Source of the DNA: Azospirillum lipoferum 4B
GTDB taxonomy: Bacteria > Pseudomonadota > Alphaproteobacteria > Azospirillales > Azospirillaceae
Length of the DNA: 64,000 nt
Assembly: GCF_000283655.1 (NCBI RefSeq)
Contig: NC_016587.1
Coordinates: 1 to 64,000, forward strand
Direction: 5' to 3'
The notes under the pieces are model-generated. The model was given only the letters and a program-made list of their open reading frames with translations. It was not told where the DNA came from and did no database searches. Made by a program: the position numbers and the translations under genes. Below, piece by piece: positions 40,578 through 51,216 of the stretch (within the stretch, counting starts at the first letter, position 1; each line of letters begins with the position of its first letter).

Positions 40578-42629
40578 TTACGCCGCCCGCACCGTCGCGA
40601 TGAAGGTCCCGACCTCCCGGCGCAGCCGCTCCGCCTCGACGGCCAGTTCGTGCGAGGTGCCGTGGACGCGGCCGGCGGCGTCGCCGGTCTCGTGAACGGC
40701 GGAGCTGACGCCGGCGATGTTGCTCGACACCTCTTCGGTGCCCTGGGCGGCCTGGGTGACGCTGCTGGCGATCTCCCGCGTGGCGGCGGCCTGTTCCTCG
40801 ATGGCGGCGGCGATGGCGGTGGTGATCTCGCTCATCTGGCCGATGGTCCGGCCGATGCCGCCGATGGCCTTCTGGGCGCCGCCGGTCGTCTGCTGGATTT
40901 CCTGCACCTTGGCCTGGATCTCGTCCGTCGCCTTGGCGGTCTGGGTGGCCAGCGCCTTCACCTCGCTCGCCACGACGGCGAAGCCCTTGCCGGCCTCGCC
41001 CGCCCGCGCCGCCTCGATGGTGGCGTTCAGCGCCAGCAGGTTGGTTTGCGCTGCGATGCCGCTGATCAGCTCCACCACCGCGCCGATCTGCTCGGCGGCG
41101 GTCACCAGGTCGCGCATGGTGCGGTCGGCCCCGTCGGCATCGGCCACCGCCTGGGTGGCGATGCGGGTGGAGTTCTCCACCTGCTGGCCGATCTCGGCGA
41201 TGGAGGCCGACAGCTCCTCCGTCGCGGTGGCGACGGTCTGCACGTTGGCCGAGGCCTGTTCCGACGCGCTGGCGACCAGCAGCGAACGCTCGCTCGCCTC
41301 ATGCGCGGTGGCGGTCAGCGCGGTGGCGGCGTCGCGCATGCCGGTGGCGGCGTTGGCGACGGTGTCGACGATGCCCTTCACCGTGCTTTCGAAGGTGTCG
41401 GCCATCTGCATCATGGTCTCGCGGCGATGCTCGGCGGCCTTGCGTTCGCTCTCCTCATGCGCCTTGCGCAGGCGCTCCACCTCCAGCGCATTGGTCTTGA
41501 AGACCTGGAGCGAGCGGGCGAGAGCGCCGATCTCGTCCCGGCGCTCGCCATCGGTGACGGCAACGCTCAGGTCGCCCTGGGCCAGACGCCCCATCGCCCC
41601 GGTGATGGCACCGAGCGGCCGGGTGATGGCGCGCGAGATCGCCCAGGCCAGCAGCAGGCCGGCCAGCAGGGCGACCACGGTCACCGCCGTGCCGCGCGAT
41701 TCGGCCGCTTTGACCTCGGCGGCGGCGCTGCGTTCCAGCTGCGCCAGGAATTCGGCGGACTGGCTGCGGATCATGCCGATCTTGTCGCCGATTTCCTTGC
41801 CAGCCTTGCCCAGCGTCTGGCTGTTCAGCGACTTCAGATCGGCGCTCAACACCGCGATGCGCTCGATCCCCGTGCGGTAGGCGGGCAGCTTGGCGACGGC
41901 CGCGGCCAGCTTGGTCTTGACCGGACCGTCCGCCATCCCGTCGCGCAGCGCCTCTGCCTTCGCGGTCACGTCGGTCAGATCCTTGCGGATGCGCTCCAGA
42001 TCCTCCGCCTTGGTTTCCGCCACGAAGCGGGCGACCAGCACGCGGACCAGCAGGTACTGTTCGCTGACCTCGGCCGCGCGCACGGTGCGGTCCAGGTTGC
42101 CGCCGTCCTTCTCGGCCTTGACGGTATCGCTCAGGGTGCGGCGGATGTCGGCGCCCAGCGTGTTCACCACCGAGGCGACGATCTGGTCGCGCTCCGTCCG
42201 CGCGGCGACGAGACGGTCGAAACCGCCGGTCAGCGTCTGGCGCAGCGCGGCGATCTCCTGCGCCGCCTGAAGGTCGGAGGCACGGGTCATCCGCGCGGTG
42301 GCGGCGTCCAGTTTCTGGCGGAACTTCTCGACGTCGCTGCGGAAGCGGTCGGCCACCGCGGGGGAGCCGCTGGACACGAATTCCTCCGCCGAGCCCAGGG
42401 CGTCGGCCATGTTGGTGTCCGCCTCCGCCACCGTCATGGCGACGTGCGACTGCCCCGCATATTGGCGGAGCGCGTCGTCGCTGGACTGCAAGCCCGTCCA
42501 GGATACCGCCCCGAGCCCGACCAGAAGCGCCAGTGTGACGCCGAAGCCTGTGTAGATCTTGGTCGCCGTCCGCAGGTTGGCGAAGGGGCCGGCTTTGGCG
42601 GAATGGCTCTGGCTGGTGGCGTTCATCAT
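40578..42629 (-). CDS. methyl-accepting chemotaxis protein with helical periplasmic sensor
   Basis: The 683-residue receptor has TM1 ([20 protein letters not shown]), a long all-helical periplasmic domain (about residues 45-315) resembling HBM-type sensors with no Cache motifs, TM2 ([22 protein letters not shown]), HAMP ([31 protein letters not shown]) and the signalling domain with the tip [33 protein letters not shown] sensors bind organic acids or sugars in other receptors, and the nearby gluconate-type genes are suggestive only. I chose the ATG at 42629 (MMNATS); a GTG six codons upstream is possible. Confidence 0.9.
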
Positions 42630-42863
42630 GGTGACCCCGGCTTCCACTGGCGACGGAGCGGTCTTTGATCAGGCCGCTGATTGGTCAGTCACGTTACAAG
42701 AACAATGCCAAAGGACCATTAATGGCCGGTTTGCTTTTCTACCCTGCGAAAACGCCGCCGGTTGCCTGCAAACACGCCGGCGGCATTTCGCATTTCGCCA
42801 ACACATGTGACGCTGCTTTGCATTTTGCCAGTTCCGCCGCTCCGAAACTGCGAAACCCGGCCG

Positions 42864-43664
42864 TCAGTTATAGAACTGTCCTCCATTCACCTCGATCACC
42901 TGCCCGGTGATGTAGCCGGCCAGCCGTCCGGAGGCGAGGAACAGATAGGCGCCGACGCAATCCTGCGCCGTGCCCAGCCGCTTCAGCGGGATGCGCGCCG
43001 CGGTTTGCGCCAGCTTGTCCGGGGTCGAGTAGCGTTGGTGGAAATCGGTGTCGACGGTGCCGGGAGACACGGCGTTGACGCGGATGCCGTGCGGCGCCAG
43101 CTCCGTCGCCAGCGAGCGGGCGAGGCTGGCCTGGAAGGCCTTGGCGGCACTGTAGAGCGACGACCCCGCGCTGCCCCCGGTCCTGCCGGAGATGGAGCCG
43201 GTGTTGACGATTGCCCCCGTCGACGCGACCAGCGCCGGCAGCGCCGTCCGGCTGGCGATGAGGGCGGAGGCGGCGTTCAGGTCGAACTGCCGCTGCAGGA
43301 AGTCGTCGTCGATGTCGCCCAGCGCCACCCGGCCCAGCATGGTGCCGGCATTGTTGATCAGCACGTCCAGCCCGCCCAGCCGGTCGACCGCGCTTTCCAC
43401 CACCCGGCGGACCTCCGCCTTGTCGGCGAAGTCGCCGGCCAGCGGGACCACTTCCGCCCCCATGCCCGCCCCCATCCCCGCCGCCACGGCCTCCAGCGCC
43501 GCCGCGTCGCGGCCGTGGATGGCGACATGGGCGCCGAGCCGGGCGAAGGCCGCCGCCACCGCGGCGCCGATGCCGCGGCTGCTGCCGGTCACCAGAACCC
43601 GCTTGCCGCGGAACTCCTGCGCCAGCAGGTCGGCGGGCCAATCGGCAAATTCGGTCGCGGTCAT
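42864..43664 (-). CDS. short-chain dehydrogenase/reductase
   Basis: The 266-residue NAD(P)-dependent oxidoreductase has the Rossmann motif TGSSRGIGAAVAAAFARLG, the NNAG motif (VLINNAGTMLGR), catalytic Ser in VNTGSISGRTGG, the YSAAK catalytic Tyr-Lys pair, and the C-terminal TGQVIEVNGGQFYN. Size and motifs match classical SDRs; the substrate is unknown. I chose the MTATEF start because GGGGAG lies about ten bases upstream. The 234-base gap before it contains only a gccgccgg/ccggcggc hairpin (42754-42784) and the upstream region of the MCP. Confidence 0.88.
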   Translation of the reverse strand: MTATEFADWPADLLAQEFRGKRVLVTGSSRGIGAAVAAAFARLGAHVAIHGRDAAALEAVAAGMGAGMGAEVVPLAGDFADKAEVRRVVESAVDRLGGLDVLINNAGTMLGRVALGDIDDDFLQRQFDLNAASALIASRTALPALVASTGAIVNTGSISGRTGGSAGSSLYSAAKAFQASLARSLATELAPHGIRVNAVSPGTVDTDFHQRYSTPDKLAQTAARIPLKRLGTAQDCVGAYLFLASGRLAGYITGQVIEVNGGQFYN

Positions 43665-44093
43665 GAACGCGTGCTCCCCTGATGGCAGGCCGCCCCGGCC
43701 GATGTTCGGAATCGAAAGGCAGCCTGATTGTTCGTGTTCCAATCCGATCATAGGGGGCGCCGCTTCCCCCCGTCAATCCAGGGTCCGGCGGCAGGTCCGG
43801 CGACAATGGGCCGATTGTCGTTTCCAGGCGAATAGTGTTGTCGGAACTGCCGGATTTATCCGGCTGCGGCAGACGGTTAACTCTGTGTTCACGGCCGACG
43901 CTCCCCGGCGCCGACCGGACGTCAACCTCCAGCCCCGCCCCGCGCCCGGTGACGAATCCCCCGTCGCCGGGCGCATCCCCCGGCAGGGCGGTTTCCGCCT
44001 GAAAGCACAGCAGTCTTCACGCAGGCATCCGCCGCCGCCCCGTTTCGCGAGAAACCTGTCGAAGACGGCCGGCCTTCGGGCTATGTAGGCGGG
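43665..44093. other. 429-base intergenic region between divergent genes
   Basis: This must hold the promoters of the SDR gene and the methyltransferase gene. CGACAAT (43801-43807) and ATTGTCG (43814-43820) form a perfect short palindrome with a six-base centre. Otherwise I see nothing specific. Confidence 0.4.
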
Positions 44094-45311
44094 ATGAACA
44101 CCGACCCCGACCATATCGACCAGAATTTCGAGATTTTCCTGGTGGCCGCCCCCGGCCTGGAAGCCGTGCTGTGCGCGGAGGCCGCCGACCGCGGCTTCGC
44201 GAACCCCACCGCGGTGAAGGGCGGCGTGACGGTCACCGGCGGCTGGCCGGAGGTCTGGCGGGCAAATCTGGAGCTGCGCGGCGCCACCCGCGTGCTGGCG
44301 CGCATCGCCTCCTTCCGCGCCTTCCATCTGGCGCAGCTGGACAAGCGGGCGCGCCGCGTTCCCTGGGCGCAAATCCTGCGCGCCGACGTGCCGGTGCGGG
44401 TCGAGGCCTCCTGCAAGGGCTCGCGCATCTACCACGCCGGCGCCGCCGCCCAGCGCATCGAACGCGCCATCGCCGAGGAGCTGGGCGCCCCCATCGTCAA
44501 GGCCGCGCCCAAGCCCACAGGCAAATCCACCGGCCGGAACGCCCCGAAGGATACGGAGGCGGAGGACACCCGCCCCCTGGAGGAGATCGCCGTCCAGATC
44601 AAGGCGCGCATCGACGACGACCTCTGCACCATCAGCGTCGACAGCTCCGGCGAGTCGCTGCACAAGCGCGGCCACAAGGAAGCGGTCAACAAGGCGCCGA
44701 TGCGCGAGACGCTGGCCGCCCTGTTCCTGCGCCAATGCGGCTATGACGGGCGCGAGCCGGTCCCGGTGGTCGATCCGATGTGCGGCTCCGGCACCTTCGT
44801 GATCGAGGCGGCCGAGATCGCCGCCGGCCTGAAGCCCGGCCGGTCCCGTTCCTTCGCCTTCGAACAGCTCGCCAACTTCGACCCCGCCGTCTGGCGGAGC
44901 CTGCGCGGCGACGCCACGGCCACCGCGCCCGCCGTCCGCTTCTACGGCAGCGACCGCGACGCCGGCGCCATCGCCATGAGCCGCGCCAATGCCGAACGGG
45001 CCGGCGTCTCCGCCTGGACCGACTTCGCCCACCACGCCATCAGCGACCTGACCCCGCCCGAGGGTCCCCCCGGCCTCGTCATCGTCAACCCGCCCTACGG
45101 CGCCCGCATCGGCGAGGGCAAGTCCCTGATCCCGCTCTACCACGCCATGGGCCAGACGCTGAAAAGCCGCTTTGGCGGTTGGCGGGTGGGCATCGTCACC
45201 AACGAAGCGGCCCTGGCCAAGGCGACGGAGTTGCCGTTCGGGGAGAACGGGATGTCGGTGTCGAACGGGGGGATCAGGGTGACGCTGTATCGGACAGGGG
45301 TGTTGGGGTAG
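44094..45311 (+). CDS. THUMP-domain class I RNA methyltransferase (RlmL/YpsC family)
   Basis: The 405-residue SAM-dependent enzyme is expected to form N2-methylguanine in rRNA. The N-terminal FEIFLVAAPGLEAVLCAEAADRGF and the THUMP region (about residues 60-190, ASCKGSRIYHAGAAAQRIERAI) bind RNA. KRGHKEAVNKAPMRETLAAL leads into the methyltransferase domain, with DPMCGSGTFVIEAAEIA (SAM binding), FYGSDRDAGAIAMSRANAERAG and the catalytic NPPYGARIGEG. A charged insert (KPTGKSTGRNAPKDTEAEDTR) lies between the domains. It lacks the second methyltransferase of E. coli RlmKL. It is the last host gene before the retron. Confidence 0.9.
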   Translation: MNTDPDHIDQNFEIFLVAAPGLEAVLCAEAADRGFANPTAVKGGVTVTGGWPEVWRANLELRGATRVLARIASFRAFHLAQLDKRARRVPWAQILRADVPVRVEASCKGSRIYHAGAAAQRIERAIAEELGAPIVKAAPKPTGKSTGRNAPKDTEAEDTRPLEEIAVQIKARIDDDLCTISVDSSGESLHKRGHKEAVNKAPMRETLAALFLRQCGYDGREPVPVVDPMCGSGTFVIEAAEIAAGLKPGRSRSFAFEQLANFDPAVWRSLRGDATATAPAVRFYGSDRDAGAIAMSRANAERAGVSAWTDFAHHAISDLTPPEGPPGLVIVNPPYGARIGEGKSLIPLYHAMGQTLKSRFGGWRVGIVTNEAALAKATELPFGENGMSVSNGGIRVTLYRTGVLG

Positions 45312-45410
45312 CATTGCACCCGTCTCGGTATTACTTCCAACAAAGTTGAGCGATCTCAATATCTTGCGCAGGAGTGCCCATTGCTTTCTGCTCTGCGCAG
45401 ATGCTCGGAC

Positions 45411-45556
45411 TCGGCGTATCAGCGAGCGAGAGCTTTATTAACCATAAAAAATTTTGGTTCGCTGGCAGCGAACTATGTTGACCAATCTCTGAACCCACAC
45501 TATCTTCGTACTTAGTTGGTGACGTTAATGGAGATAAGCCCATTCGCTGAGTGAAT
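45411..45556 (+). ncRNA. candidate retron msr-msd RNA
   Basis: TCAGCGA (45419-45425) is the reverse complement of TCGCTGA (45544-45550), giving a candidate a1/a2 stem. Just inside comes GCGAGAGCTTTATTAACC, resembling the start of the Ec86 msr as I recall it; G at 45426 is the candidate branching guanosine. The msr part holds GTTCGCT/AGCGAAC (45457-45473, three-base loop) and an alternative AACCA/TGGTT hairpin. The msd part can form an imperfect stem from ATCTC (45485-45489) to GAGAT (45531-45535). A strong hairpin with arms GAGTGAATC/GATTCACTC (45549-45570) follows. Location upstream of the accessory and RT genes fits retron layout. The boundaries are inferred by eye. Confidence 0.5.
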
Positions 45557-45648
45557 CTCTCGATTCACTCGTGGGAGATATATAAATCTCCTAACATCCT
45601 GCACGGGTGGTCCGGCGACGCGGCGACGCGGCGGCGGCCGTCCGCAGG

Positions 45649-45680
45649 CGGCGCGGGGCCGGGGCACCGGCCCCGCGCCG
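45649..45680 (+). other. very stable 14-base-pair hairpin in the retron leader
   Basis: CGGCGCGGGGCCGG (45649-45662) is perfectly complementary to CCGGCCCCGCGCCG (45667-45680), with GGCA as the loop. It lies in a short GC-rich block between the AT-rich candidate ncRNA and the peptide gene, preceded by gcgacgcg-type direct repeats (45615-45635). There is no following T run, so it is unlike a standard terminator. Confidence 0.65.
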
Positions 45681-45702
45681 GGTCAAGCTGGGTAAAGCCG
45701 TC

Positions 45703-45771
45703 GTTCTCCACTTCTCTTTGGGGGCAGAAGCGTTCTGCAATCCCGCAGGCGCTTGCAATGAGAAGGAGAAC
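45703..45771 (+). promoter_or_regulatory. leader stem predicted to hide the ribosome site of the 51-aa gene
   Basis: GTTCTCC (45703-45709) is the exact complement of GGAGAAC (45765-45771), which contains the Shine-Dalgarno sequence of the small gene. Pairing continues, after a two-base bulge, between TTCTC (45712-45716) and GAGAA (45760-45764), giving 12 pairs. The enclosed loop holds another hairpin, GCAGAA/TTCTGC (45724-45738). Translation of the peptide would thus need this stem to open. Confidence 0.55.
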
Positions 45772-45777
45772 TCCGTC

Positions 45778-45933
45778 ATGTCGGTGGTCGATTCACGTTC
45801 CAACCAGCGACGGCGGCGGCAGATCCTTACGCAGGTGTTGCGCATACTGTGCAACCCCTGGACGGCGCGGTTTTTGATCGCAGTCGCACGATTCGTCGCG
45901 AAGGTGATCGAACACTTCGACGATAGGAACTGA
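45778..45933 (+). CDS. 51-aa cationic amphipathic peptide, putative retron-associated effector
   Basis: The start is supported by a near-perfect AAGGAGA ribosome site. The N-terminal part is hydrophilic and strongly basic (SNQRRRRQ), followed by ILTQVLRILCNPWTARFLIAVARFVAKVIEHF, a long amphipathic or membrane-seeking helix with Arg31, Arg38 and Lys42 on one face, then DDRN. Such size and character are typical of membrane-active toxins and small regulators. It lies between the candidate ncRNA and the HTH gene, 45 bases before the latter, in the same direction. The toxin role is inference. A longer frame from 45607 reads through the GC-rich hairpin and is unlikely. Confidence 0.5.
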   Translation: MSVVDSRSNQRRRRQILTQVLRILCNPWTARFLIAVARFVAKVIEHFDDRN

Positions 45934-45978
45934 CGCCACCCAGCCTTGTTACCCTGGGATGCATTCGAGGAGGTAACC

Positions 45979-46308
45979 GTGTTGAACGAAGCCTTGCGAC
46001 TGCTCCGGGTCTTTCATGACTTGTCGCAGAAGGATTTGGCAGCAAAACTTGGCGTGACGAAGTCGTATATCTCGGAGATTGAGGCAGGAAAGAAGGTGCC
46101 TACGTTGCAATTACTTGAGCGATACGCTCAGGTATACAACATTCCATTGTCTTCGATTATGTTCTTTTCCGAGAATATAGGAAAAGAAGGTACGGCTGAG
46201 AAAACGCGCCAATTTGTATCCGAAAAAGTCTTGCGACTGATGGCGTTCATTGCAGAGCGGTCGGGGAAGCAGGGTGATGACGAAGAAGATCAAAAGTTAT
46301 CCGCTTGA
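45979..46308 (+). CDS. XRE-family helix-turn-helix protein associated with the retron
   Basis: The 109-residue protein has a Cro/C1-type domain at about residues 3-60 (LRLLRVFHDLSQKDLAAKLG, then VTKSYISEIEAGKKVPTLQLLERYAQVYNIPLSSIMFF) and a charged helical tail (AEKTRQFVSEKVLRLMAFIAERSGKQ). The GTG start at 45979 has a strong GAGGAGGT site. Codon use is much more AT-rich than in host genes. It overlaps the RT start by 32 bases, so the two are coupled. HTH proteins are the accessory partner in one of the recognised retron types; here it may repress the operon or bind the msDNA. Confidence 0.88.
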   Translation: MLNEALRLLRVFHDLSQKDLAAKLGVTKSYISEIEAGKKVPTLQLLERYAQVYNIPLSSIMFFSENIGKEGTAEKTRQFVSEKVLRLMAFIAERSGKQGDDEEDQKLSA

Positions 46309-47215
46309 TCAATCACCCTTTTATAAGCTGACTACCAAGCGAAAGCTTGCTGAACTTCTTCGACTTCCGCTGGGCAGGCTCAAGAGAATCGCTCTCTTGT
46401 CACCCAATATGTATAATGAGTGGATACAAGAAAACGCGAAAGGAAAAAAAAGGCAAATTGAAGATCCTGCGCGCCCTCTTAAGCTGGCGCAAGGAAGGAT
46501 TGCAAATATACTATCGTCCATCTCAGCGCCGAATTATCTTCATTGTCCGGTCAAGGGCCGGTCCTATATTTCAAACGCGGCTGAGCATATCGGTGCAAAG
46601 CATATAAGGAATATAGACATTAGTAATTACTTTCCATCTACCAAATCAACTCGCGTTTACTGGTTCTTTAATACTATTCTAAAGTGCACACCTGATGTCT
46701 CTGGCATTCTAACCGCCCTAACTACTTACAAGGGGCATCTGCCGTGTGGAAGTCCAGCCAGCTCTATCTTAGCATACTTTGCTCACTACGATATGTGGCA
46801 GAGTATTGATCAAATCGTTTCGGAGAATGGCTGCAAATTATCTGTATACATGGATGATATCACTGTCTCTGGCGAGATGGTTACAGAGCGCGTTATATTC
46901 CAAGTGCGCAGATGTATATTTCGCGCGGGCCTTCAGCCAAAGAAGGAAAAGGAAAGGTGGTATCGCCATGGTATTGGCATTGTCACAGGCATTGTCGTTC
47001 GACCCAGCGGTCTATCTGCCCCAAACTCAGCCCACCTAAAGCGCTTCACTTTGCGGCGCCAGATAGCATCTTCATGCAACGAATCTGAGAAATCTTCTTT
47101 GCGAAGAAGTCTCAAGGGCATAGAAGGACAGCAGTCTCAAATTGACCGTTGGAATAGACGATTGCACAATTCTAAATCAAATGCAAAAGAGCATGTGAAT
47201 TTGAAGCCAAATTAG
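46277..47215 (+). CDS. retron-type reverse transcriptase
   Basis: The 312-residue RT shows all retron hallmarks. The region X motif is NAAEH (residues 100-104, fitting NAxxH). RNIDISNYFPS (about 111-121) carries the first catalytic Asp, LPCGSPASS (155-163) matches the conserved Gly-Ser-Pro box, YMDD (191-194) is the catalytic pair, and VTG (236-238, in GIGIVTGIV) is the region Y signature. The length is typical and no fused domain is present. One sample line of the gene (46621-46680) has 19 G or C in 60 bases, far below the host genes. The start lies inside the HTH gene; GTG at 46274 is an alternative. It would synthesise msDNA from the adjacent RNA. Confidence 0.95.
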   Translation: MTKKIKSYPLDQSPFYKLTTKRKLAELLRLPLGRLKRIALLSPNMYNEWIQENAKGKKRQIEDPARPLKLAQGRIANILSSISAPNYLHCPVKGRSYISNAAEHIGAKHIRNIDISNYFPSTKSTRVYWFFNTILKCTPDVSGILTALTTYKGHLPCGSPASSILAYFAHYDMWQSIDQIVSENGCKLSVYMDDITVSGEMVTERVIFQVRRCIFRAGLQPKKEKERWYRHGIGIVTGIVVRPSGLSAPNSAHLKRFTLRRQIASSCNESEKSSLRRSLKGIEGQQSQIDRWNRRLHNSKSNAKEHVNLKPN

Positions 47216-47257
47216 GTAGACTATGTTTGGAAATTACAGTTGATTTATCCTAGAAAA

Positions 47258-47333
<76 letters not shown>

Positions 47334-47394
47334 GTTGTAACCCTCAACTCGCGCTCAAAAAACGCATCCGACTGCTTGGATGGCAGGGCGTGGA

Positions 47395-47470
47395 TGGCGT
47401 CCCCTAGGGGATTCGAACCCCTGTTACCGCCGTGAGAGGGCGGTGTCCTAGGCCTCTAGACGAAGGGGAC
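47395..47470 (-). tRNA. tRNA-Glu (anticodon CUC), first copy
   Basis: The 76-base gene includes an encoded CCA. The acceptor GTCCCCT pairs with AGGGGAC, the anticodon loop is CTCTCAC (CUC), and the T arm is GGTTCGAA. The D arm GTCTAGAGGCCTAGGAC is identical in all three tRNAs here. Confidence 0.95.
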
Positions 47471-47537
47471 GTCTGGTCCCGATGCATGCTGCGGCGGTGG
47501 AGGCTGCCACCGGCCGCTCGACCCAACCTTGGAAGGT

Positions 47538-47613
47538 TGGCGTCCCCAAGGGGAGTCGAACCCCTGTTACCGCCGTGAGAGGGCGGTGTCCTAGGCCTCT
47601 AGACGATGGGGAC
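47538..47613 (-). tRNA. tRNA-Glu (anticodon CUC), second copy
   Basis: The 76-base gene includes an encoded CCA. The acceptor GTCCCCA pairs with TGGGGAC and the anticodon loop is CTCTCAC (CUC). It differs from the first CUC copy mainly in the acceptor and one T-loop position. It is the most upstream of the three in the transcription direction and lies about 40 bases after the aldolase gene. Confidence 0.95.
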
Positions 47614-47656
47614 GTCATCGGCGTGGGCGGGTTTCTAACCAAGCCCGCCCCGGCGA

Positions 47657-48691
47657 TCAAGCCTTTTCTTGGAGTCGGCGCAAAATACCCAGCAAACCGT
47701 CCACCGCCGCCGCCGGGGTGTCGAACGCCGTCACGAACCGCGCGCTGCCGTCGTCCCAGCGGTAGAAGCCGTAGCCGGCCCCCTCCAGCGCCTCGGCGTA
47801 AGCGTCCGGCAGGCGGATGAACAGCTCGTTGGCCTCGACCGGGTGGGCCAGCTCGACGCCGGGAAGCGCCGTCAGCCCGGCGGCCAGACGGTCGGCCATG
47901 GCGTTGGCGTGGGCGGCCAGACGCAGCCACAGCCCGTCCTCCAGCCAGGCGTCGAGCTGCGCCGACAGGAAGCGCATCTTCGACACCAGATGGCCGCCGC
48001 GCTTGCGGCCGAAGCCGAAATCCTCGGCCATCGCCGGGTTGAAGAACACCACCGCCTCGGCGGCGAGGCAGCCGCCCTTGGTGCCGCCCAGCGTCAGCAC
48101 ATCGACCCCGGCGCGCCACGTCACGTCGGCCGGGGCGCAGCCCAGCCGGGCGATGGCGTTGGCGAAGCGGGCGCCGTCCATATGCACGGCCATGCCGTTG
48201 GAATGGGCGGTCTCGACCAGCGCCTCGACCTCCGCAGGGGTATAGACGGTGCCGGCCTCCGTCGCCTGGGTCAGGCTGAGGGCGGCGGGCTGGACGCGGT
48301 GGACGACGCCGACGCCAGCCCGGGCGATGTGGCGCGACACCGCGTCGGGCGTCAGCTTGCCGTGCGCGCCGGCCAGCGGGACCAGCTTGGCGCCGCCGGT
48401 GAAGAACTCCGGCGCGCCGCATTCGTCGATGGTGATGTGGGCCTCGTCATGGCACAGCACGGCGCCATAGGGCGGCACCAGCGCCGACAGCGCCAGCGAG
48501 TTGGCCGCCGTGCCGGTGGCGACCGGGAAGACCGCGACCTCGGTCTCGAAGATCGCGCAGAGCCGCTCGGTCACCCGCGCGGTCCAGGGATCGTTGCCGT
48601 AGGGGGAGGCGGTGCCGGACGATGCCGCCGCCAGCGCCGTCATCACCTGCGGGGCGGCACCGGCGACGTTGTCGCTGCGGAAGTCATACAT
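47657..48691 (-). CDS. ltaE: low-specificity L-threonine aldolase
   Basis: The PLP enzyme cleaves L-threonine or L-allo-threonine to glycine and acetaldehyde. The 344-residue protein begins with the hallmark YDFRSDNVAGAAPQVMTAL and has SPYGNDPWTARVTERLCAIFE, FPVATGTAANSLALSALVPPYGAVLCHDEAHI, HMDGARFANAIARLGCAPAD and DVLTLGGTKGG with the PLP-binding Lys. It is a fold-type I enzyme, cytoplasmic and probably tetrameric. It lies directly upstream of the tRNA-Glu cluster on the same strand. Confidence 0.92.
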   Translation of the reverse strand: MYDFRSDNVAGAAPQVMTALAAASSGTASPYGNDPWTARVTERLCAIFETEVAVFPVATGTAANSLALSALVPPYGAVLCHDEAHITIDECGAPEFFTGGAKLVPLAGAHGKLTPDAVSRHIARAGVGVVHRVQPAALSLTQATEAGTVYTPAEVEALVETAHSNGMAVHMDGARFANAIARLGCAPADVTWRAGVDVLTLGGTKGGCLAAEAVVFFNPAMAEDFGFGRKRGGHLVSKMRFLSAQLDAWLEDGLWLRLAAHANAMADRLAAGLTALPGVELAHPVEANELFIRLPDAYAEALEGAGYGFYRWDDGSARFVTAFDTPAAAVDGLLGILRRLQEKA

Positions 48692-48709
48692 GATCGGAAA
48701 CCCCGTTCT

Positions 48710-49048
48710 TCAAGGAGCAGCCCTGCCGGAGACGGGGCCGGCGGTGATGGTGGCGGCGACGGCGCCGGTGCGCGGGTCCATCAGGTACAGGCGGTCCGGC
48801 CCCTGCGGCAGGCTCACCTTGAACAGGACGCGGTTGCCGACGACCACGAGCTCGCCGATGCGGGAACCGGCCGGGACGTCCAGCGTCACGTCGACGGCGG
48901 GCTCGGCCGGAGCGGGCGAAGGCGCGATGGCGGTCAGGGAGGCGCGGTTGGGGTCCGACATCCGCTTGTACAGCTCCACCCCCAGAAAGGTGAAGCCGGC
49001 GAGGATCAGAACGCCCATGATGACGACGAGTGCCTTGAGGATCTGCAC
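48710..49048 (-). CDS. small single-pass membrane protein of unknown function
   Basis: The roughly 112-residue product has an N-terminal membrane helix (ALVVIMGVLILAGFTFLGVELY), a short Ser/Ala/Pro linker (SLTAIAPSPAPAEPAV) and a periplasmic beta-type domain (VTLDVPAGSRIGELVVVGNRVLFKVSLPQGPDRLYLMDPRTGAVAATI). I chose the GTG at 49048, where GGGAG lies upstream; the longer frame runs into the promoter of rluD. DUF-type proteins of this form sit next to rluD in related bacteria as far as I recall. It is divergent from rluD. Confidence 0.7.
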   Translation of the reverse strand: MQILKALVVIMGVLILAGFTFLGVELYKRMSDPNRASLTAIAPSPAPAEPAVDVTLDVPAGSRIGELVVVGNRVLFKVSLPQGPDRLYLMDPRTGAVAATITAGPVSGRAAP

Positions 49049-49100
49049 GGTTTGGGGTCCACTCCCGGACGATTGAAACAGGACGCGATACGCAAAGCCG

Positions 49101-50162
49101 ATGGCCGCCAACATGCCGGACGACACCAACCCGGACGACCTGTCCGACGATTTCCTCGATCCGGACGACGACGCCGGTTCGCCTGCCCGCGCCCTCGCCT
49201 ACACGGTTCCCGACGAGGCGGCGGGCCAGCGGCTGGACAAGGCGTTGGCGGCGGGCCTGCCGGACCTGTCGCGGTCGCGCGTGCAGGCCCTGCTGGAACA
49301 GGGCTGCGTGCGCGGCGACGGGCGGACGATAACGGACCCGTCCCTGAGGGTCAAACCCGGCCAGACCTTCGAGGTCGAGGTTCCCGGCGCGGAGGCCGCC
49401 GAACCGGTGGCGCAGGACATCCCGATCGACGTGGTGTTCGAGGATGCCGACGTGCTGGTGATCGACAAGCCGGCCGGCCTCGTCGTGCATCCCGCCGCCG
49501 GCAACCCGGACGGCACGCTGGTCAACGCCCTGCTCGCCCATTGCGGCGACAGCCTGTCCGGCATCGGCGGGGTGAAGCGGCCGGGCATCGTCCACCGGCT
49601 GGACAAGGACACCAGCGGCCTGATGGTGGTCGCCAAGAACGACCGCGCCCACCATGGCCTGTCGGAGCAATTCTCCGACCGCACGCTCAGCCGCACCTAT
49701 CTGGCGCTGGTCTGGGGCGTGCCCAACCCGACGCAGGGCCGGATCGAGGGCAACATCGGCCGCAGCAGCGCCGACCGCAAGAAGATGGCGGTGGTGACCG
49801 GCGGCGGGAAGCACGCCGCCACCAAGTACCGCGTGGTGAAGAGCTTCGGCATGGCGGCCTCGCTGGTCGAATGCGTGCTGGAGACCGGGCGCACCCACCA
49901 GATCCGCGTCCACCTGACCCATATCGGCCATCCGCTCGTCGGCGACCCGCTTTATGGCCGCGGGCGGTCGGGGCGGCCCGGCGGCAAATTCGCCTCGCTG
50001 CTGCCGGAACCGGTGCGAGGCAGCCTTGTTGGCTTTCCGCGACAGGCGCTGCATGCCGCGGCGCTGACCTTCCGTCATCCGGTCAGTGGCGAGATCGTGA
50101 CCTTCCGCTCACCAATCCCGGCGGATATTCATGAACTAATTGTCACCTTGGAGACGGGTTAA
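49101..50162 (+). CDS. rluD: 23S rRNA pseudouridine synthase RluD
   Basis: RluD makes the pseudouridines of 23S rRNA helix 69. The 353-residue protein has an acidic N-terminus, an S4 RNA-binding domain (about residues 35-95; GQRLDKALAAGLPDLSRSRVQALLEQGCVRGDG), then the catalytic domain with VIDKPAGLVVHPAAGN, the active-site Asp in IVHRLDKDTSGLMVVAK, and ETGRTHQIRVHLTHIGHPLVGDPLYG. Adjacent rpoH follows, a gene pair conserved in alphaproteobacteria. The start could be 49101 or the ATG at 49113. Confidence 0.94.
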   Translation: MAANMPDDTNPDDLSDDFLDPDDDAGSPARALAYTVPDEAAGQRLDKALAAGLPDLSRSRVQALLEQGCVRGDGRTITDPSLRVKPGQTFEVEVPGAEAAEPVAQDIPIDVVFEDADVLVIDKPAGLVVHPAAGNPDGTLVNALLAHCGDSLSGIGGVKRPGIVHRLDKDTSGLMVVAKNDRAHHGLSEQFSDRTLSRTYLALVWGVPNPTQGRIEGNIGRSSADRKKMAVVTGGGKHAATKYRVVKSFGMAASLVECVLETGRTHQIRVHLTHIGHPLVGDPLYGRGRSGRPGGKFASLLPEPVRGSLVGFPRQALHAAALTFRHPVSGEIVTFRSPIPADIHELIVTLETG

Positions 50163-50325
50163 AACGATACACCGGGAAATCTTTCTTGGTTAGACTCCCG
50201 GTCAATGGCGAGGTTCCGCCGCCCGCTCATTGAGAGGGGCCTATGGAACCCGCGCTGAAGAACGGCAGTGTGCGCATGAATTCATGTCGGCGCGCACCGG
50301 CCGTCATAAAGGGGGTTTTAGAACC

Positions 50326-51216
50326 ATGGCGACGGCGTCCAACCTTCCGGCTATCGGGTCCGAAAGCAATCTGTCCCGCTATCTCCAGGAAATCCGCAAG
50401 TTCCCGATGCTGGAGCCGGAGCGGGAATACATGCTGGCCAAGCGGTGGCAGCAGCATGAGGATTCCGGCGCCGCCCACCAGCTCGTCACCAGCCACCTGC
50501 GGCTGGTCGCCAAGATCGCCATGGGCTACCGCGGCTACGGCCTGCCTTTGTCGGAACTGATCTCCGAAGGCAATGTCGGCATGATGCAGGCGGTCAAGCG
50601 CTTCGATCCCGACCGCGGCTTCCGGCTGGCGACCTACGCCATGTGGTGGATTCGCGCGGCGATCCAGGAATACATCCTGCACAGCTGGTCGCTGGTGAAG
50701 ATGGGCACCACCGCCGCGCAGAAGAAGCTGTTCTTCAACCTGCGCCGGCTGAAGGGCCAGATGCAGGCAATCGAGGAGGGCGACCTGTCGCCCGAGCAGG
50801 TCCAGGCCATCGCCACCAAGCTGGACGTGCCGGAACAGGACGTCGTCAACATGAACCGGCGCCTTGCCAGCCCCGACCATTCGCTGAACGCGCCCCTGCG
50901 CGCCGAAAGCGAGGGCGAATGGCAGGATTTCCTGGTCGACGAGACCGCCAGCCAGGAAATCACGCTGGCCGACCGCGAGGAGCTGGGCAAGCGCCGCAAG
51001 CTGCTGGCGAACGCCATGACCGCGCTGAACGAGCGCGAGCGCGACATCCTGACCGAACGCCGCCTGCGCGAGGCGCCGACGACGCTGGAGGATCTGTCGC
51101 AGAAATACGGCATCAGCCGCGAGCGTGTCCGCCAGATCGAGGTCCGCGCCTTCGAAAAGCTGCAGAAGGCGATCAAGGCCGCCGCGGTGGAACAGAGGAT
51201 GGAGACGGAGGCGTAA
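50326..51216 (+). CDS. rpoH: RNA polymerase heat-shock sigma factor RpoH (sigma 32)
   Basis: The 296-residue sigma factor has region 1.2 (SNLSRYLQEIRKFPMLEPEREYMLAKRW), region 2 (LVTSHLRLVAKIAMGYRGYGLPLSELISEGNVGMMQAVKRFDPDRGFRLATYAMWWIRAAIQEYI), the RpoH box (AAQKKLFFNLRRLKGQ) and region 4 (LEDLSQKYGISRERVRQIEVRAFEKLQKA). The ATG at 50326 follows AAGGGGG. A 160-base leader after rluD may form structure controlling translation, as in other rpoH genes, but I did not resolve one. Confidence 0.95.
   Translation: MATASNLPAIGSESNLSRYLQEIRKFPMLEPEREYMLAKRWQQHEDSGAAHQLVTSHLRLVAKIAMGYRGYGLPLSELISEGNVGMMQAVKRFDPDRGFRLATYAMWWIRAAIQEYILHSWSLVKMGTTAAQKKLFFNLRRLKGQMQAIEEGDLSPEQVQAIATKLDVPEQDVVNMNRRLASPDHSLNAPLRAESEGEWQDFLVDETASQEITLADREELGKRRKLLANAMTALNERERDILTERRLREAPTTLEDLSQKYGISRERVRQIEVRAFEKLQKAIKAAAVEQRMETEA

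Follow-up and report, generated by a model that had tools for sequence, protein, structure and literature searches.

A type VI retron of Azospirillum lipoferum 4B as a candidate doubly locked toxin module

Introduction

The window analyzed here, a stretch of 64,000 nucleotides from Azospirillum lipoferum 4B (contig NC_016587.1, positions 1 to 64,000 of the forward strand), carries at positions 45438-47215 an intact type VI retron, an ordinary representative of a kind that is known but little understood. Three open reading frames (ORFs), all intact, follow one another on the plus strand and encode a small cationic peptide, an XRE-type helix-turn-helix (HTH) protein and a reverse transcriptase (RT). 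Ahead of them lies a structured leader that is a candidate retron noncoding RNA (ncRNA). The retron types, type VI among them, were reportedly set out by Mestre et al. in 2020. We propose, at a rough probability of 0.55, that this retron works as a doubly locked toxin module.

In outline, the HTH protein would bind a palindrome beside the promoter and repress its own operon. The transcript would open with the retron ncRNA, comprising a1, msr, msd and a2, which would also be the 5' leader of the peptide message, and a hairpin next to a2 would bury the Shine-Dalgarno (SD) sequence of the peptide gene, such that the cell makes the HTH protein and the RT but no peptide. The RT would bind the ncRNA and make multicopy single-stranded DNA (msDNA) right beside this lock. 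Upon phage infection, disturbance of the HTH protein, the RT or the msDNA would derepress the operon and open the lock; the cationic, two-helix peptide would then be made and attack the membrane of its own cell, and the infected cell would stop. Here, we describe a comparative analysis of the genes, the leader RNA and the promoter region of this retron and its relatives, and weigh the evidence for and against this model.

Results and Discussion

The RT carries the three retron hallmarks that a preliminary description had attributed to it, NAAEH at residue 100, YMDD at residue 191 and VTG at residue 236. It matches the PADLOC profile RT_VI with 294.4 bits (E 1.9e-88), the next family, RT_III-A, scoring 137.9 bits. 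The HTH protein, which has a lone XRE domain, matches PADLOC HTH_VI (E 8.2e-36) and Pfam HTH_3 (E 2.1e-15), and its gene lies directly upstream of the RT gene and overlaps it by 32 bases. Judged by profile scores rather than by a tree, the RT belongs to the type VI retron clade, in agreement with the earlier reading of the locus as an HTH-associated, type VI retron. A phmmer search of the Protein Data Bank with the RT returned seven sequences, namely Ec86 (three), Ec67 (two), Kva2 and one further RT chain, with the Ec86 RT at E 1.6e-17. The predicted structure of the RT (mean pLDDT, the predicted local distance difference test score, 87.6) has a retron RT fold: among the best 50 matches listed from a fold search, ranks 1-13 are all retron RTs, a diversity-generating retroelement (DGR) RT first appears at rank 14, the group II-like RT G2L4 at rank 17, and group II intron RTs from rank 29. 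The RT thus groups structurally with retron RTs rather than with group II intron or DGR RTs, the alternatives raised in the preliminary description.

Related loci were compared in several sets. We examined 86 oriented loci and found the HTH gene in 76, some of the other 10 being cut by a contig end; 74 of the HTH loci, near-identical ones included, had enough upstream sequence. The tests of SD burial, palindrome, lock hairpin, msr, shared words and HTH helix used 53 representative loci, from which near-identical loci and those with no clear peptide start had been removed by hand, and in which the peptide starts were hand-picked. Plasmid and phage loci served as a hold-out, with 13 of 14 stretches used and L120 omitted for too little upstream sequence; hold-out locus L117 duplicates the discovery locus L072 and was dropped from the SD-burial hold-out (n = 12).

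The peptide of the window has a net charge of +6 and a best 18-residue hydrophobic moment of 0.66, and its N-terminal half is strongly basic and includes four consecutive Arg. Its predicted model consists of two helices, at residues 5-24 and 27-50 (mean pLDDT 70.6). Searches of PADLOC, Pfam, PHROGs and NCBIfam gave no significant match; a Pfam Amanitin match (E 0.09) was taken as chance. A peptide ORF, defined by a length of 30-95 residues, an SD, positive charge, a hydrophobic stretch and an end near the HTH start, is present in 71 of the 74 HTH loci, against 6.2 expected from shuffles, and in all 13 hold-out loci; the three failing loci (L069, L076, L077) have similar ORFs by eye. The small amphipathic peptide of the preliminary description is thus supported, as one that is conserved before the HTH gene. 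In an alignment of 20 peptides, most begin with a basic half and then show an NPxTL[RK]-like stretch ahead of an amphipathic helix, with only the Pro nearly invariant, and across most loci a hydrophobic or amphipathic C-terminal stretch recurs. Between the window and its closest relative by RT sequence, A. oryzae A2P (L022, 78% RT identity), the peptide gene differs at 16 bases, eight in third, seven in first and one in second codon positions, a weak sign of selection.

The preliminary description had also held that the peptide, as a third component, would make the system unusual. Given the count of 71 in 74, and since a 2021 paper that cites the retron classification already ascribes to type VI "genes encoding small auxiliary proteins" (PMC8541194), this claim is not supported, and the small peptide is an already known component of type VI retrons. 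The ORF is nevertheless unannotated in three of six phage records (KS5, MuM16-1 and Pmp14); the plasmid gene table is incomplete, and a missing peptide annotation there says little. In the Shewanella phage MuM16-1, an unannotated ORF of 48 residues just before the HTH gene (L116, 980-1126) fits the type VI peptide; p31, the small protein named for this phage in PMC8541194, lies further off on the opposite strand.

The peptide is probably a self-poison and the candidate effector of the retron, and we infer that it acts on the membrane. It might instead bind DNA or RNA as a cofactor of the RT or the HTH protein, the effector being the HTH protein or something acting in trans. The basic N-terminal half with its four-Arg run would suit such a role, as would the modest peak hydropathy (0.56-0.68) of the peptides of L075, L110, L114 and L115. 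However, the recurring C-terminal stretch argues against a cofactor, and the lone XRE domain and conserved candidate operator of the HTH protein fit a repressor rather than an effector. We consider this alternative quite unlikely.

The candidate operator is a palindrome, TTCGCTnnnAGCGAA, that sits by a promoter-like element from which transcription would start at about 45513. Its core, TCGC-N5-GCGA, occurs exactly near the promoter in 35 of the 53 loci (in the region from -450 to -150 relative to the peptide start), whereas among 300 sets shuffled by dinucleotide the average count was 0.5 and the highest 4, and none of the 53 has it in a control stretch. Widening the region to -600 raises the count to 37 of 53, and in many of the 53 loci a TTGAC lies about 20 bases after the palindrome start. 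The consensus, AAATTCGCTnnnAGCGAATTT, extends from Azospirillum as far as a Staphylococcus (L087) and a genome of the Clostridia (L101). In some loci a variant stands where the exact site would be, for example TTCTCTGGCAGCGAA in L002 and TTCTCTGTCAGAGAA in L035. Among hold-out loci the exact palindrome is present in 7 of 13, or 6 of 12 when the L072 repeat is left out.

Additionally, the palindrome is associated with the HTH recognition helix, which we take, from general knowledge of XRE proteins, to be the one bearing an S-E-[ILV]-E motif. Of 45 loci with the Glu of this motif, 36 carry the exact site, versus 1 of 8 (L050, with Asp) in which the Glu is replaced, a split that was noticed before it was tested (Fisher p 5e-4, shared descent uncorrected). 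Near-exact sites are found in 38 of the 45 loci with the Glu and in 0 of the 8 without it. Because it lies near the promoter, has a conserved core and is associated with the recognition helix, the palindrome is probably the operator of the HTH protein. In 10 of the 53 loci (L026, L028, L030, L032, L034, L049, L063, L072, L091 and L093) a second half-site, GCGAA, follows the first by 20-21 bases and may be a second operator half.

The leader, from 45512 to 45780, folds with z = -5.8, and 0 of 200 shuffles fold as well. In an Rfam search of the leader no family reached its gathering score, and none listed at E <= 5 was a retron RNA. The identification of the leader as a candidate ncRNA, running from about 45512 to the peptide start, thus comes from the comparison of loci made here. 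The structured upstream RNA of the preliminary description is supported in that comparison by recurring msr hairpins. In the window, L022 and L002 the two hairpins are joined by a G[TCA]GG linker and co-vary, with compensatory changes among the window, L001/L022 and L002 at GAGTGAATC:GATTCACTC, GAGTGAACC:GGTTCACTC and GAGTAAGTC:GACTTACTC. The msr descriptor reaches p <= 0.05 against single-base shuffles in 36 of the 53 loci, of which 29 at the msr place are the safer count, the best match being another hairpin pair in seven loci (the window, L006, L050, L073, L075, L081 and L093). A MAFFT alignment of the msr pieces was structurally poor and was left out of the counts. Retron branch sites have an NGC context, and a candidate branching G lies between a1 and the first msr hairpin. 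Within the candidate msd, the hairpin of L002 has one G:C pair changed to A:U and one to G:U. In the cyanobacterial loci L023, L025, L027 and L045 the msr is more distant from the peptide start, at -309 to -444; tandem repeats occupy the interval in L027 (2165-2321, units of 11 and 34 bases) and a short one is found in L025 (about 2030-2480), and the cyanobacterial msd may be a repeat array.

The a1/a2 stem that would close this RNA is a weaker part of the assignment. In 41 loci the complementarity of a1 and a2 within their own locus scored 14.37, against 12.37 (standard deviation 0.36) when permuted, and 0 of 20,000 permutations reached the observed value (p <= 5e-5), in a narrow test designed after the pairing had been seen by eye and with anchors set by hand for 42 of the 53 loci; L025 was dropped from it, its msr being too near the edge of the cut region. 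Runs of at least 6 pairs occur in 26 of the 41 loci, against an expectation of 17.4. In 34 of the 41, hairpin 1 follows the start of the best a1 by 18-25 bases; the best a2 ends within 1 base of the 5' arm of the lock hairpin in 19 of the 41 and within 3 bases in 32. Given how close a2 lies to the hairpin that tends to bury the SD, the ncRNA would be the leader of the peptide message and may also be the switch for making the peptide.

In the window the SD of the peptide gene has a predicted unpaired probability of 0.04. Across the 53 loci, the median accessibility of this SD is 0.22, and shuffling of the upstream bases raises it to 0.38 (Wilcoxon p 1.5e-7; 16 loci at p <= 0.05); for the HTH SD of these loci, taken as a control, the values were 0.29 and 0.30 (p 0.52; 2 loci at p <= 0.05). 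This shuffle test, which upholds across the family the leader hairpin earlier predicted to lock the peptide SD, supersedes a comparison of the two SDs in which that of the peptide was the lower in 36 of 53 loci (Wilcoxon p 0.011). Furthermore, a two-stem hairpin with a 5' bulge, often GGCGA or GGCAA, reached p <= 0.05 in 28 of the 53 loci, about 2.6 being expected; in at least L078 the best match of this search is something other than the hairpin preceding the peptide start. Loci of several phyla have the hairpin, with a similar bulge, ahead of the peptide gene.

A competing explanation is that the peptide is made constitutively and is inactive when bound to a complex of RT and msDNA, perhaps with the HTH protein, the leader hairpin only setting a low rate of translation. 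Other retrons keep their effector in an RT-msDNA complex, according to PMC12548924 and PMC13405049, and the burial of the SD is statistical and absent in some lineages. Nonetheless, a bulged hairpin before the peptide start in several phyla would be needless for a merely low rate. We judge this explanation to have an appreciable chance of being right, with the odds clearly against it.

Compatible with the doubly locked module is a variant in which the leader is an RNA switch. In the window a2 itself pairs with the SD, and a1 and the SD therefore compete for it: a2 is predicted to pair with the SD at a probability of 0.79 and with a1 at 0.00. Formation of the a1/a2 stem, which would be the RT-bound, msDNA-making form, would free the SD from a2, and RT binding or reverse transcription would turn translation on. 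Forcing a1 and a2 to pair lifts the unpaired probability of the SD from 0.04 to 0.16 in the window, from 0.10 to 0.34 in L002 and from 0.05 to 0.51 in L037. However, the window SD is still mostly paired in the forced state, and elsewhere a2 and the lock are neighbors that share no strand; over 19 loci the cost of forcing ranges from 0.5 to 9.4 kcal/mol and is at most 1.4 kcal/mol in nine of them. Such a switch is on balance unlikely. We hold, as a tentative suggestion only, a broader form of the doubly locked module for type VI as a whole: the ncRNA would be the regulatory leader of a toxin message instead of a molecule of its own, a2 would both end the retron stem and adjoin or pair with the toxin SD, RT assembly or reverse transcription would thereby gate translation of a membrane-active peptide, and the HTH protein would gate transcription through an operator conserved from Azospirillum as far as Staphylococcus and Clostridia. 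In the best fold of the window, the leader 5' end GUGACG (45519-45524) also pairs with the start-codon region CGUCAU (45774-45779).

Two further roles for msDNA were considered. The idea that it is antisense to the peptide start, which calls for direct repeats shared by msd and start region, was rejected, the longest word shared by msd and start region measuring 6.28 versus 6.35 in shuffles, and inverted words 6.94 versus 6.26. Operator half-sites (TTCGC or GCGAA) in the msd region, from -230 to -60, gave a count of 33 over the 53 loci versus 18.5 expected from single-base shuffles; with this excess, msDNA might be a decoy operator that binds the HTH protein.

Several points weigh against the doubly locked module. 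What the comparison of loci establishes is the gene content, the type, the conservation of the peptide, the operator-like palindrome, the msr hairpins and the structure before the peptide start; repression, membrane action, msDNA, the trigger and defense are inferred. The two helices of the peptide are predicted with only modest confidence. Taken alone, SD burial in the window has p 0.06; tested singly, 37 of the 53 loci fall short of significance, and in about 10 the SD is no more buried than in shuffles. In three of the four cyanobacterial loci burial is weak and little different from shuffles, and the 12 hold-out loci gave p 0.065 (one-sided), which makes SD burial in every lineage a weaker claim. 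The window and L002 fail the strict descriptor of the bulged hairpin. With looser, wide windows the a1/a2 test in 32 loci was not significant (p 0.19), and in the window itself the a1/a2 pairing is disfavored, costing 4.8 kcal/mol to force. The post hoc origin of the narrow a1/a2 test and of the recognition-helix split belongs with these points, as does the fact that the Fisher, shuffle and permutation tests take no account of shared descent, the loci not all being independent.

Coordinates of the features discussed are collected in Table 1.

Table 1. Features of the retron and its right flank in the window
Feature	Position	Strand	Description
Palindrome TTCGCTGGCAGCGAA, candidate HTH operator	45458-45472		Core TCGC-N5-GCGA
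Promoter-like element	45478-45506	+	TTGACC (45478-45483), 17 bases, TATCTT (45501-45506); from sequence
Candidate a1	45529-45534	+	TGGAGA, complementary to a2
Candidate branching G for msDNA priming	45538	+	ATAAGCC context; G kept in L022 and L002
Candidate msr	45548-45592	+	Hairpin 1 (45548-45571), linker, hairpin 2 (45573-45592)
Candidate msd template region	45593-45704	+	Between msr and a2, with GC-rich hairpin 45650-45679; from fold
Lock hairpin (predicted)	45703-45771	+	5' arm 45703-45720, 3' arm 45756-45771; buries SD 45763-45768
Candidate a2	45705-45710	+	TCTCCA; also the strand predicted to pair with the SD
Cationic amphipathic peptide, candidate effector	45778-45933	+	51 residues, ATG start
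XRE/HTH protein, candidate autorepressor	45979-46308	+	109 residues, GTG start, HTH_VI family
Retron RT, type VI	46277-47215	+	312 residues; overlaps the end of the HTH gene
Three tRNA-Glu genes	47258-47613	-	ARAGORN; outside the retron, flanking the insertion place

Compared with type VI retrons as defined by PADLOC RT_VI and HTH_VI, the window retron has the same RT and HTH families, gene order, HTH/RT overlap and small upstream protein, and no gene-level difference was seen. A literature search, outside which lay most subscription papers and many preprints, found no description of the operator-like palindrome, the SD hairpin, the two-hairpin form of msr or the placement of a2, and no paper that deals with how type VI retrons work. 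The anatomy described here supplies testable parts for the whole of type VI, namely an operator, a leader lock and a peptide family that four profile libraries do not recognize. The possible coupling of reverse transcription to translation would, if true, be a novel means by which a retron restrains its toxin.

The retrons with solved structures, Ec86, Eco2 (Ec67), Ec78 and Eco8, have the RT fold and motifs in common with the window RT. Their effectors are larger proteins, whereas the candidate effector in the window is a short peptide encoded downstream of the ncRNA and apparently cotranscribed with it. In type I toxin-antitoxin systems, membrane peptides are locked by their leaders, and the likeness to them, a short hydrophobic or amphipathic peptide with a buried ribosome-binding site, is one of mechanism only; unlike theirs, the leader in the window is a candidate retron ncRNA, with HTH and RT genes downstream. 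The retrons treated in PMC12548924 are of types II-A and III-A, with two untyped. Type VI-like elements of phages, found in Klebsiella ST147-VIM1phi7.1, Escherichia P2_2H1, Burkholderia KS5 and Shewanella MuM16-1 (PMC8541194), likewise have an HTH gene and an RT gene preceded by a small ORF, whose start has a hairpin ahead of it, but lie in phage genomes, whereas the window retron lies beside tRNA-Glu genes.

The base composition of the retron is unlike that of its host, as the preliminary description had noted: the GC content is 49% over 45438-47215 and 68% over the whole window, and 200-base bins across most of the HTH and RT genes have 42-49% GC, versus about 69-75% in flanking bins. The retron had been called AT-rich; this is correct for 45400-45600 and for most of the HTH and RT genes, and incorrect for 45600-45800, a part of the candidate ncRNA with 69% GC. 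To the left of the retron lies an ORF (44094-45311) that reads by eye, with no search, as methyltransferase-like, and no phage genes were recognized by eye, again with no search, among the ORFs of 42000-51000.

With one genome taken per species, the retron is present in 2 of 45 Azospirillum species. The copy in genome G022 occupies the same place beside tRNA-Glu genes. That in G004 (L002) has a different genomic context and its similarity to the window spans only 45438-47157; because the similarity begins there, we place the left end of the unit at 45438, and we take the palindrome, promoter, leader and three genes to move together as a unit. A blastn comparison of the same flanks in G001, G003, G004 and G005, with the tRNA side of G001 broken by N, found no retron sequence between them. 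This sporadic distribution would also suit a decayed or silent element with no function in its host. Against decay stand the three intact ORFs, the compensatory changes in msr and, as a weak sign of selection, the lone second-position difference from L022 in the peptide gene, and we regard it as highly improbable.

No relatives of the RT were found in a scan of viral contigs, and a nucleotide search of plasmids gave a single weak match to the RT. On a Microvirga terrae plasmid (L108, 2468-3427), a TIR-domain gene directly follows a retron RT gene. The gap between the methyltransferase-like ORF and the tRNA-Glu genes varies in length in L103 (G001), L104 (G005), L105 (G003) and L106 (G004), and is perhaps a place of variable cargo.

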